From assembly GCA_002688925.1 (NCBI GenBank), contig NZEC01000009.1:1-37012 (forward strand): a stretch of 37,012 nt of DNA. Direction: 5' to 3'. Position 1 is the first letter of the stretch. Each line of letters opens with the position of its first letter. Below the pieces are notes generated by a model. The model made no database searches and was not told the origin of the DNA. It was given only the letters and a program-made list of their open reading frames with translations. The translations under genes were made by a program, and so were the position numbers. The stretch is from an archaeon (lineage in GTDB: Archaea; Nanobdellota; Nanobdellia; Woesearchaeales; GW2011-AR4). Positions 19,135 through 27,083 of the stretch are shown one piece after another.

Positions 19135-20085
19135 TTAAATTGCCTTAAATTTGATGTTTTTGAACTCATTGTTCAGCATTGTGCTTGCTTTTTTTGTCAA
19201 TATTCCGTTAGTCAAAAATAGAAGCGGAAGGTTTTTTGACTGAGCCTGTATAGAGGCAGTGCTGAGGTCTGCATCATTTATCTTTTTCTTGTTTTTTGAC
19301 TTGCAGAAATATTTAATGTTTCCTATTGAAGTTTCAAGCTCAACTATAAAGTCCATTTCAGAATTTTTCTTTACCTCATATTTTTCGGTAATTTTTATTT
19401 TGTTTTTATCCAGAAAATTGTGGATTTTATTCAGAAAGGCGTTTTTGTCTGTTTTTATTGTTTTTTTTACTGGCTCTTTTTTTATTTCTTCTTTTAGTTT
19501 TTCTGTTGGCCTATCATGCTGCATTATTTCTGGTTTTTTATATTCCTGAGGTTTTTGTTCTGGCTGTTTTTTTTGTTCTTCAATTTTTTCCTGTATTGGG
19601 ATTGCTTTTTTAGGTGGTAATTCTGGTTTTTTTATATCTTCTTTTTTTGATAATATCTCCTTGATTAAAGACTGGGCGTCTTTGCTATCGAACAGGTACC
19701 ATTTCCAGAATATTTCATTTTTATGCTCATAGCTAACCTGCAATGGAACTGCAAAATCCTTGATTTCTCTTAAAGCTACCCTGATGACTGGCTCCTGTGA
19801 AGAATCCCGCAAAATTTTATTTTGCTTCAGCATTTCATACGCTTTTTTCTCCTTTTCGTGAAGGTTTTCAGAAAAATTCTGAAGCATGTGTTCCTGTCCA
19901 GGAAAGTAATATAATGGGGATCCCCCTATTTTGACGTAAGATATTTTTATCTGTTTTTTAGATGACAGCTCAGAAAGCCTCGCAGAAGTCATTAAGATAT
20001 TGTCATCTATCTCTTTTGACAGCTGCACGGGCAAAACAGGCCCTTTTTCCTTAACAAGCAATAGTATTTTTTCGTTTGCGTCCAT
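19135..20085 (-). CDS. Winged-helix protein with C-terminal nuclease-like domain
   Basis: 316 residues; family not recognised with certainty. Residues 1-60 look like a winged helix (ILLLVKEKGPVLPVQLSKEI, then ARLSELSSKKQI as recognition helix). About 155-215 is a P/E/K-rich linker. The last ~100 residues read like a PD-(D/E)XK fold: EMDFIVELET, GNIKYFCKSKNKKK, an alpha-helical DLSTASIQAQSKNLP, then LLFLTNG. The catalytic ExK position appears as C-x-S-K, so it may be diverged or inactive. It lies 43 bp upstream of FEN1, and its promoter carries the motif shared with MCM and the Cas4-like nuclease. A DNA-repair role is inference from that context. Confidence 0.65.
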   Translation of the reverse strand: MDANEKILLLVKEKGPVLPVQLSKEIDDNILMTSARLSELSSKKQIKISYVKIGGSPLYYFPGQEHMLQNFSENLHEKEKKAYEMLKQNKILRDSSQEPVIRVALREIKDFAVPLQVSYEHKNEIFWKWYLFDSKDAQSLIKEILSKKEDIKKPELPPKKAIPIQEKIEEQKKQPEQKPQEYKKPEIMQHDRPTEKLKEEIKKEPVKKTIKTDKNAFLNKIHNFLDKNKIKITEKYEVKKNSEMDFIVELETSIGNIKYFCKSKNKKKINDADLSTASIQAQSKNLPLLFLTNGILTKKASTMLNNEFKNIKFKAI

Positions 20086-20147: not shown

Positions 20148-20729
20148 TTAGGGACGCAGCCACCTACTTTCCCAATAGCTCACACAATTCTCTTCATCAA
20201 CTACACCGATGAGCAATCTTTTCCTTGTGGAATGCGCAACCCTATTTTTTGCTGCAAATTCATGCCATGTTAGTGTATTGCCTTCATACACAGGAAATAC
20301 AACCCATTTTGCATGGTCTTCTCCTGGCTTAACACCTCTGTCATATACCCTAAAATCAGCTCCAAACTTCAATGCGGTTTTAATTATATAGCCTCTATTC
20401 CTCATATCCTTGAAAACGCAATACCTGATCCAGAAATTCGGCTCGAGTTTTTTTGCTTTTTTGGATAATTCATCAAAATCCATTTTTTTGGTTTTTGATT
20501 TGAAAATCTCAATCCTGTTTTTTTCAAGAAGATATAAGGATTCAATTAAAGATAATTGAACTCTGCCATTATCAAGCAAGGTTCCGTACCTGCCCTGGTT
20601 ATATAATTCCCTTGATTCATCGGAGTTTTCTGACAGTATATTATCTCCAATAAATTCTGTTATGACTATTTTTTTATCTTTCTCTTCCTTTTCCGGTTTT
20701 TGCTTTTTCTCTTTCTTGGCTTTTTTCAT
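20148..20729 (-). CDS. endA: tRNA-intron endonuclease
   Basis: 193 residues from ATG 20729; the frame to GTG 20756 overlaps the TATA-like GATATATC and is not favoured. After a Lys/Glu-rich N-terminus comes the EndA fold, with the triad visible as Tyr129 (FRVYDRG), His139 (GEDHAKWVV) and Lys170 (STRKRLLIGVV), and the C-terminal SYWESRW. It cuts bulge-helix-bulge motifs in pre-tRNA and pre-rRNA. Its length fits the homotetrameric alpha4 class (about 180 residues). No intron-bearing tRNA is in this window. The gene ends 62 bp upstream of the start of the winged-helix gene at 20085; the shared-motif promoter lies in that gap. Confidence 0.93.
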   Translation of the reverse strand: MKKAKKEKKQKPEKEEKDKKIVITEFIGDNILSENSDESRELYNQGRYGTLLDNGRVQLSLIESLYLLEKNRIEIFKSKTKKMDFDELSKKAKKLEPNFWIRYCVFKDMRNRGYIIKTALKFGADFRVYDRGVKPGEDHAKWVVFPVYEGNTLTWHEFAAKNRVAHSTRKRLLIGVVDEENCVSYWESRWLRP

Positions 20730-20824
20730 TTTATACAATAAGCATTGATATATCACTTAAAAATGTTTTTGTTTTGTATATTAGTTAATTTCTATATTGA
20801 AAATTATTATTATTATTTATTCGA

Positions 20825-20952
20825 GAAAATCAGCGCTTATGCGGGGCCTTAGCACTCTTCTCAACTTCACAAAACTGCGTTTTGCTCAGGTCATCTATCT
20901 AGATCCTACGGAGTTTGCTCCATTGGCAATTTACGCATAAGCGCTGATTTTC
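20825..20952. repeat. Foldback intergenic element, copy A
   Basis: The 128-bp element has a perfect 19-bp terminal inverted repeat: GAAAATCAGCGCTTATGCG (20825-20843) and its complement (20934-20952). The interior has a hairpin CAAAA-CTGCG-TTTTG (20870-20884) and a second, GGAG-TTTG-CTCC (20910-20921). It matches the reverse complement of copy B (26915-27029) over long blocks such as GCCTTAGCACTCTTCTCAAC and TGGCAATTTACGCATAAGC. It sits between the divergent EndA and RNase Z genes. No reading frame or target-site duplication is visible. Confidence 0.8.
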
Positions 20953-21009
20953 AAACAAAACCCAATATAAATGAAAAGTATTTTAATGTTAAATTGATTT
21001 CGTGATTAC

Positions 21010-21900
21010 ATGCAAATTTTATTTTTGGGCACTTCTTCAATGGTGCCGACAAAGGAAAGGAATCAAAGTGCTGTTTTAGTTAGCTATGGCTCTGAAGGGA
21101 TTCTTGTTGATTGCGGGGAAGGCACGCAAAGGCAGCTGAAAATTGCGGGTGTCAAGCTGACTAAAATCACAAAAATACTTATCAGCCATCTGCATGGAGA
21201 CCATGTATTGGGGCTTCCGGGCATGATTCAGAGCATGAGCTCTGCAGATTATAATGATATATTGGATATTTATGGTCCTGTCGGAACTAAAAAATTTGTG
21301 GAAAATTTGTTTAAAACGTTTTTGTTTGACAGAAAAATTGAAATTCGGGTTAGGGATATTAAAAGCGGAAGGTTTTCTGAAAGTGATGACATGATATTAG
21401 AAGCGCAGTCGCTTGAGCACAATGTTGATACTCTTGGATATAGCATCATCGAAAAAGACAGAAGAAAAATAAATTTGAAATTTACAAAAAAGTTAGGTAT
21501 TCCAGATGGGCCATTGCTTGGAAAAATGCAGGATGGTAAAAACATTGTGTGGAAGGGAAAGAAAATAAATGTAGATGATGCAACAGATATTGTAAAGGGC
21601 AAAAAGGCAACGATTATCAGCGATACTGTGCCGTGCAAGGGAGCGGATATGCTCGCAAAAGACAGTGATTTGCTGATATCCGAAGCAACCTATGCATCTG
21701 ATCTGGAAGATAAAAGTATTGAGTATGGGCATATGACTTCAAAGCAGGCTGCAGAGCTTGCTAACAGGACTGGCTCAAAAAAACTTGTTCTTACACATTT
21801 CAGCGCCCGCTATAAAAACACATTAAAATTAGAAGAGGATGCAAGGGATTACTTTGATGATGTTTTATGTGCAGAAGATTTTATGAAAATTAATTTATAA
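21010..21900 (+). CDS. rnz: Ribonuclease Z (tRNA 3' endonuclease)
   Basis: 296 residues. It is a metallo-beta-lactamase fold: N-terminal MQILFLGTSSMVPT, DCGEGTQRQL, the zinc motif HLHGDH (60-65), further ligands in LEHNVDTLGY, ISDTVPC, SEATY and the C-terminal LTHFSARY. Archaeal RNase Z removes the 3' trailer of pre-tRNA next to the discriminator base. Its stop is 2 bp before the Hjc start, so the two are co-transcribed. The promoter region (ATTTTAATG about 30 bp upstream) begins just beyond foldback copy A. Confidence 0.95.
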   Translation: MQILFLGTSSMVPTKERNQSAVLVSYGSEGILVDCGEGTQRQLKIAGVKLTKITKILISHLHGDHVLGLPGMIQSMSSADYNDILDIYGPVGTKKFVENLFKTFLFDRKIEIRVRDIKSGRFSESDDMILEAQSLEHNVDTLGYSIIEKDRRKINLKFTKKLGIPDGPLLGKMQDGKNIVWKGKKINVDDATDIVKGKKATIISDTVPCKGADMLAKDSDLLISEATYASDLEDKSIEYGHMTSKQAAELANRTGSKKLVLTHFSARYKNTLKLEEDARDYFDDVLCAEDFMKINL

Positions 21901-26262: not shown

Positions 26263-26907
26263 ATGCCAGAGCTAGAAAACCGGACAATACAAAAAAGGCA
26301 GATTGCATATAAGACAGGAATAAAAGATATGCTTGATTCTGATTACATAAAAACAGAGGGTTTTGAGCCCAATTATCTGAAAATAAACGGCCTGGAAATT
26401 TCCAGGGTTAATGTCATAGGTGTTGTTGTCCAGAAATTAGATACAGATAATCATAAAAATATCCTGATTGATGATGGTACTGGAGAGATAAGCGCAAGAA
26501 TATTTGAAGATAATGCGCTGCTTGATAAGATAAATGTGAGTGATATTGTAATTATAATCGGGAGGCCAAGGGAATTTTCAGCAGAAAAATATATACTTAT
26601 CGAGAGTATTAAAAAAATTGATTCAAAGTGGGCAGAAGTAAGAAAACTGGAGTTAAAGAGAGATGTTAGCAAAGCGCCTGTTGTTGGAATTCCTGCGGCT
26701 GAATACAATACGGGAAATAAAGAAATTGTTGACTTAAGCCCTTCAAATGAAATTGTTAATCTGATAAAGGAGCTGGATAAAGGGGAAGGTGTGCCTATAG
26801 AAGAAATATATTCAAAAAATAAAGATGCAGATAAATTGGTTAATATACTTTTAAAAGAAGGGGATGTTTTTGAAGTAAAGCCTGGAAAATTAAAAGTGTT
26901 GGAATAA
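26263..26907 (+). CDS. RPA-like OB-fold protein (RPA32/COG3390-like)
   Basis: 214 residues. Residues 45-115 form an OB fold (RVNVIGVVVQKLDTD, ILIDDGTGEISARIF, DIVIIIGRPREFS, YILIESIKKID). The last 50 residues look like a winged helix (GVPIEEIYSKNKDADKLVNI, LLKEGDVFEVKPGKLKVL), the same OB-plus-winged-helix layout as RPA32 and archaeal RPA-associated proteins. It probably binds single-stranded DNA at the fork, alone or with an RPA not in this window. Cotranscription with MCM (6 bp gap) supports a replication role. The exact subfamily is uncertain. Confidence 0.78.
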   Translation: MPELENRTIQKRQIAYKTGIKDMLDSDYIKTEGFEPNYLKINGLEISRVNVIGVVVQKLDTDNHKNILIDDGTGEISARIFEDNALLDKINVSDIVIIIGRPREFSAEKYILIESIKKIDSKWAEVRKLELKRDVSKAPVVGIPAAEYNTGNKEIVDLSPSNEIVNLIKELDKGEGVPIEEIYSKNKDADKLVNILLKEGDVFEVKPGKLKVLE

Positions 26908-26914
26908 TGCAACG

Positions 26915-27029
26915 TTGGTGCTTATGCGTAAATTGCCAAATTGATAAGCTCAGCAGGATGTGTTATACTACCTGAGCATACGCAGTATGCGAAGTTGAGA
27001 AGAGTGCTAAGGCTCCGCATAAGCACCAA
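26915..27029. repeat. Foldback intergenic element, copy B
   Basis: The 115-bp element has a perfect 14-bp terminal inverted repeat, TTGGTGCTTATGCG (26915-26928) and its complement (27016-27029). The internal hairpin GCATA-CGCAG-TATGC (26976-26990) stands at the place of the CAAAA-CTGCG-TTTTG hairpin in copy A read on the other strand: the loop is conserved and the stem has changed on both sides. It lies just after the RPA-like gene stop, between convergent genes. Confidence 0.8.
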
Positions 27030-27083
27030 TCTGACTTTCATACTAACCCAAAATAAAGCAAAAAAAATCCTAAAGCCCTGCCA

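Follow-up and report, generated by a model that had tools for sequence, protein, structure and literature searches.

A miniature inverted-repeat transposable element (MITE) is present in two copies, A and B, in a 37,012-nucleotide stretch of DNA (the window), which is contig 9 of an 864,511-base, 20-contig draft genome of a Woesearchaeota-like archaeon. We put a probability of about 0.82 on the reading that A and B are old, immobile MITE copies, moved in trans by IS5-like DDE transposases, inserted at a set spacing to promoters and carrying a folded core under constraint. The family is by anatomy a derivative of a DDE transposon, because it combines inverted ends with perfect target duplications. 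Its insertion is targeted just upstream of promoters, at an exact distance from the TATA box. The core is under a constraint of its own: its pairing is maintained by compensatory changes, it outlives decayed transposon ends and it sits within different transposon ends. The element is thus both a MITE and a structured element.

The family, its anatomy and its source transposon

With copy A as the query, BLAST returns 36 matching pieces in the genome of the window, and a search of that genome with a covariance model detects 34 sites (31 strong, 3 weak), of which the window holds exactly two, A and B. An intact copy measures about 152 bp, is non-coding, ends in GRGGTTGGTGCGAAA...TTTCGCACCAACCYC and is flanked by 9-bp target duplications. 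Outward alignment of the copies reveals a 15-bp terminal inverted repeat (TIR) and a longer inverted repeat, GAGGTTGGTGCGAAA / TTTCGCACCAACCTC, which encloses the core and has about 5 extra bases in its left arm. This longer repeat has decayed in many copies of this genome, A and B included. A reading of the window made earlier from its letters alone (the sequence-only reading) had correctly taken A and B for related folding repeats in opposite orientation; it had also taken their perfect terminal repeats for the ends of the element, whereas the true ends of the transposon are farther out, about 24 bp beyond the core stem on the left and 19 bp on the right. The features are as follows.

20809-20963, + strand: copy A, whole element, in register with full-length 152-bp copies and counting in the decayed TIRs; exact edges uncertain
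20833-20944, + strand: copy A, structured core of 112 bp (covariance model, 126 bits)
20825-20843, + strand: copy A, left arm of the outer stem (P1 at 20833-20843 plus 8 paired bases outside it), from sequence and covariation
20934-20952, + strand: copy A, right arm of the outer stem, from sequence and covariation
20864-20891, + strand: copy A, hairpin P3 (ACTT/AGGT plus the hypervariable tip CAAAACTGCGTTTTG); several distinct tips occur, always self-complementary
20904-20912, + strand: copy A, small hairpin P4 (TCC TAC GGA), with UA/CG and CG/UA exchanges
20979-20987, + strand: TATA box TATTTTAAT of the tRNase Z-like gene, about 15-17 bp past the right edge of copy A
21010-21900, + strand: metallo-beta-lactamase / tRNase Z-like gene (PF12706, PF00753; weak PF13691), with copy A before its promoter
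26899-27050, - strand: copy B, whole element, in register with intact copies
26918-27026, - strand: copy B, structured core of 109 bp (covariance model, 113 bits)

No target duplication is left in copy A, and that of copy B is lost too. Elsewhere in the same genome a perfect 9-bp duplication flanks one copy (L031, TATTACTGC), and in same-family relatives such duplications are common, for example TATTGCTCT, TATGAATCA, TATTATTCT and GTTCTATTG; TIR and perfect duplication occur together in L050, L052, L055, L060, L063, L065, L083, L088, L090 and L095. Four remnants in the genome of the window (L039-L042; C16:18923, C2:9171, C20:6470 and C11:15779) retain the right end only, start near ATTGGCAATTTACGC and lie before genes; left-end-only remnants were not seen there. 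An exact 20-mer search of genome contigs places the element in two Woesearchaeota metagenome-assembled genomes, two other matches being due to chance. The same search of viral contigs gave one match, at chance level, and a 15-mer scan of viral contigs for the TIR gave single chance matches and no paired end.

An autonomous relative with the same ends is found in a related genome, G013. There, one insertion sequence (IS) shows an identical end 1 on 10 contig ends and end 2 on 12; eight end pairs have a common 9-bp duplication in the expected orientation, and the contigs are interrupted within the IS, as is to be expected of a repeat present in many copies. The IS ends seen in G013 are without the core. 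One locus (L170) reaches 161 codons into an open reading frame (ORF) whose best match is the NCBIfam IS5 transposase NF033579 (1.1e-6), and ends before most of the DDE_Tnp_1 domain. A distant full-length relative of 299 aa in another genome (G160) matches DDE_Tnp_1 at 4.1e-9; its ends read GAGTTTGTCGCA... and a TATA box adjoins it. The NF033579 scores are 28.4 bits for the partial G013 protein and 41.8 bits for that of G160, both below the cutoff of 140. Plasmids and viral contigs gave no match to the G013 piece used as a query. A hairpin, GGTGGTGGAGGTAACCACCATG (L170, 1570-1594), contains the start of the IS transposase and could mask its ribosome-binding site.

The sequence-only reading had held that A and B were not a simple mobile repeat, and had named known transposon ends, together with a source of transposase, as the finding that would count against it. 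Both were found, so that a non-transposon nature is not supported; selection on a folded form, its other claim, is supported. Its suggestion of a recombination hairpin is not borne out, heavily mosaic though the copies are, and its suggestion that the element moved as single-stranded DNA fares poorly. An integron-like (attC) or IS200/IS605-like element moving as a folded single strand would account for the long imperfect hairpin, the bulge in the left arm and the variable tip, but we consider it extremely improbable, given perfect 9-bp target duplications, ordinary inverted ends, an IS5-like, DDE-type source transposase and a distribution as dispersed single copies with no arrays. An integron attC site proper was rejected on the same grounds, as such sites form tandem arrays and have no target duplication. 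REP/RAYT palindromes (IS200/IS605-like) were likewise rejected on the presence of duplications and the IS5-like source, a Y1 transposase not having been searched for.

Insertion at a fixed distance from promoters

All eight duplication-verified insertions of the G013 IS have a TATA match at an offset of 15-16 bp on exactly one side, four at each IS end. With matches at 6% of nearby intergenic positions per side, or about 12% per insertion, the probability of eight in eight by chance is roughly 1e-7 or less. Among unique verified MITE insertions in relatives, 15 of 16 have a TATA match at 14-17, nearly always at 15, and the sixteenth (L053) has CTTATAAA at the TATA position. Verified insertions of six elements with a second type of core (see below) and several kinds of ends, and of two type-1 copies in other families, agree with this spacing. 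The distance amounts to the 9-bp duplication plus 6 bp to the TATA box, so that the duplication directly abuts the transcription factor B (TFB) recognition element (BRE). The site profile shows a BRE-like AA at positions 11-12, a feature independent of site selection, and at most IS insertions a long ORF starts shortly downstream on the TATA side. We reject the idea that the elements lie near promoters simply because they insert between genes, the spacing being exact. A fixed distance to promoter elements, as in all eight IS insertions, is also what factor-directed (Ty3-like) integration would give.

In the genome of the window, TATA matches cluster at offsets 14-17, on the right side in 16 of 34 cases and on the left in 4 of 35. 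Copy A lies at the expected distance from the promoter of the tRNase Z-like gene that starts at 21010. Copy B is flanked by two convergent genes and is an exception to the promoter rule. Copy A also lies between two divergent tRNA-processing genes (20148-21900), for a tRNA intron endonuclease and the tRNase Z-like protein. The genes of the window, among them those for the endonuclease, MCM and the PolD subunits, are archaeal; two of its proteins, encoded at 158-2131 (657 aa) and 19135-20085 (316 aa), have no Pfam match.

The surplus of right ends facing promoters in this genome (16 TATA matches against 4), together with the position of the four right-end-only remnants, likewise before promoters, could mean that these promoters had co-opted the neighbouring elements as upstream regulatory sites, the fixed spacing then reflecting function and not insertion specificity. 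This is distinctly unlikely: the G013 IS copies are identical, recent and devoid of the core, yet have the same spacing in both orientations, and the relatives show no orientation bias.

Several observations weigh against insertion by an IS5-like transposase at promoters as an account of A and B. The G013 transposase is represented by a 161-aa N-terminal piece, cut by a contig break, that has no Pfam match and scores far under the NCBIfam cutoff. The source transposase was not detected in the genome of the window by homologue search, and mobility there is therefore past. Insertions of a third end kind, TIR-B (GTAACTGCTAACA, 8-bp duplications), have the TATA spacing in only 2 of 4 cases, and one candidate insertion (L081) has no TATA box. 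Some 45% of the copies in the genome of the window, among them copy B, lack a TATA match where the spacing predicts one, and the regular expression that defined a TATA match is loose. We tentatively ascribe the copies lacking a match to decay and to opposite orientation.

On the reading that we favour, an IS5-like transposase would bind the GRGGTTGGTGCGAAA inverted ends and create the 9-bp target duplications. Integration would place the end of the duplication 6 bp before the TATA box, directly against the BRE, in either orientation. The TATA-binding protein (TBP) and TFB, bound at the promoter, may guide insertion by positioning the transposase, or the BRE and TATA box may be read directly. 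Within its ends, the MITE carries a folded module of about 110 bp, composed of four helices and constant blocks.

Compensatory pairing and exchange of the core

The core comprises an outer stem P1, the small helix P2 (GCC/GGC), P3 (ACTT/AGGT), whose hypervariable hairpin is long in some copies and nearly absent in others, and P4 (TCC..GGA); CTCAACTTC, CTCAGGTCG and GGCAA are constant single-stranded blocks. The outer arms of copy A pair perfectly, and its folding energy lies 5.5 to 6.9 standard deviations below that of dinucleotide shuffles, both as DNA and as RNA of either strand.

In 29 copies of the genome of the window, the arms of the 11-bp stem form 10.41 Watson-Crick pairs if both come from the same copy and 9.62 +- 0.12 if they are exchanged among copies; for the next 8 positions outward the figures are 4.17 and 3.30 +- 0.17 (a value reached by 0/2000 shuffles in each case). 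Among 15 copies with decayed transposon ends, these 8 outer positions still give 5.33 pairs against 3.84 +- 0.28 (0/5000). This bears out the observation of the sequence-only reading that outer arm bases vary between copies while staying complementary within each. The covariance-model search and covariation test that it had proposed also gave a positive answer: in an alignment of 38 cores drawn from five genomes, with shuffles that do not correct for relatedness, standard pairs fill 94.8% of the pair cells against 88.6 +- 0.4 shuffled, and double changes occur in 16 of 30 pairs against 7.0 +- 1.4 (0/500). Sliding the partner columns of this alignment by 1-3 lowers pairing from 95% to 25-40%. 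Column conservation in the genome of the window is 0.60/0.71 in the outer arms of the elements and 0.92-0.98 in the stem and constant blocks. Other palindromes are inserted exactly at the hairpin tips or arms of L038, L047, L048, L053 and L054; as the inserted sequences are themselves palindromic, the fold is kept.

Outside this family, the covariance model detects the core in five more of the same order (G404, G313/G311, G104/G129, G432 and G463). These cores have wholly different stems, GAGCTGTGGTGC/GCACCACAGCTC, GCGCTGGCATC/GATGCCAGCGC and GCCTTTTGCACCA/TGGTGCAAAAGGC, and other hairpins, and keep largely the same constant blocks, in agreement with the compensatory pairing; selection on the folded form is thus supported both within the genome and across families. 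A second core type follows the same logic, with the stem GGTTGCCATC/GATGGCAACC and the centre GACATTCCCCGTAAGGGACGTCCCCCTTGTC, and occurs with several different ends in 14 of 36 family genomes. Its copies, GGTTGCCATC..CCCCGTAAGGGACGTCCCCC..GATGGCAACC, include L091-L095 and L211-L235, with a single one in the genome of the window (C4:17210-17294). In another genome (G010; L064 and L071-L080), the type-1 core lies within the TIR-B end pair, in elements of 205-210 bp with 8-bp duplications. Since both core types ride on different transposon ends, cores and ends have been exchanged. The copies are extreme mosaics. Linkage in the 112-bp core is gone beyond about 20 bp (r2 about 0.03) in both genomes tested (cores L009-L043 and L052-L086), 379 of 406 pairs of sites fail the four-gamete test, and the cores resemble free combinations of recurring blocks. 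The loss of linkage means that short conversions or template switches from one copy to another have been frequent.

Could these be ordinary decaying MITEs in which complementarity is restored not by selection but by a mutational process, such as gene conversion between copies or a switch of template from one arm to the other? The mosaicism fits such a process, as do hairpin tips that are perfect palindromes of many sequences, inserted ones (L038, L047 and L048) among them. We nevertheless regard it as unlikely: correction between arms would not preserve, across families and despite wholesale change of the stem, the unpaired blocks or the short helices P2 and P4, and decay is seen in the outer arms, not in the inner ones.

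A possible role of the core, and known systems

Judged by its wobble pairs, the + strand is the likelier one to fold, as would suit either RNA or single-stranded DNA. On this strand such pairs number 79 against 18 A-C mismatches (25 against 18 once a single, nearly fixed U-G pair is set aside), and the pair at columns 39/63 is U-G in 35 sequences and C-G in 3. The core may accordingly be a functional small RNA, transcribed from left to right and spread by the MITE, its fold being kept for RNA work in trans or in cis. Structured RNAs typically combine constant unpaired blocks with a hairpin tip that is hypervariable, and Rfam gave no match at the gathering threshold in the window and chance-level hits only for the six elements searched, so that the family would be new. 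We hold this possible, if on balance rather unlikely. No internal promoter is seen at the sites in the genome of the window, the flanking genes are divergent at about 15 of 35 of them, where a read-through transcript is not expected, and G-T is the best-tolerated mismatch in folded DNA too.

If the elements are promoter-spaced MITEs, as we favour, we would guess, and would sooner bet against the guess than for it, that the core is a folded + strand nucleic acid that makes the insert harmless or useful before promoters, perhaps as an insulator- or terminator-like or a protein-binding structure. Because of the copies between divergent genes, we would guess first at a role as DNA, in insulation or protein binding, and second at an RNA. 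The broader proposal of a new class of structured nucleic-acid modules, RNA or folded DNA, spread in Woesearchaeota by several transposon ends, active at archaeal promoters and delivered by transposases that recognise promoter-bound TBP/TFB, seems to us doubtful. At the least, a fold kept across families and transposon ends makes the core a candidate new family of structured RNA or DNA.

Prokaryotic MITEs such as Correia/NEMIS, RUP, ERIC and QMITE2 resemble the present family in length (100-200 bp), inverted ends, duplications of 7-9 bp, intergenic location and strong folding, and Correia elements map mostly immediately upstream of genes (review PMC10969869). They differ in that the family described here has an exact TATA spacing and a core fold common to different transposon ends and families. 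Similarity to DDE_Tnp_1 and NF033579, and the 9-bp duplication, which IS903-like members share, link the source to the IS5 family, as does a distant copy (L250) with the IS903-like end GAGTTTGTTGAATAA, although the scores fall below the curated family cutoffs. We know of no promoter targeting by IS5. The open-access literature, weak evidence of absence, yielded no paper on it, nor on a promoter-targeted archaeal IS, a Woesearchaeota MITE, exact TATA-spaced insertion in archaea or a fold common to different transposon ends. Folded non-coding MITEs are already known, while TATA-spaced insertion in archaea and a fold kept across transposon ends appear to be new. The bridge RNA of IS110, which is not an element with TIRs and target site duplications, is likewise a structured non-coding part within a small mobile element; the IS ends seen here, in contrast, are without the core. 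Integration at a fixed promoter distance is known for some eukaryotic retrotransposons, and the yeast elements Ty3 and Ty1 reach a fixed place relative to the promoter through the transcription machinery. The likeness lies in that fixed place; the element class and the domain of life differ, and contact with a factor would here be a matter of deduction. If the reading is correct, an archaeal DNA transposon family with promoter-spaced integration would offer a possible tool to mark active promoters in uncultured DPANN archaea and, the archaeal transcription machinery being a simple version of the eukaryotic one, a tractable model of such integration.
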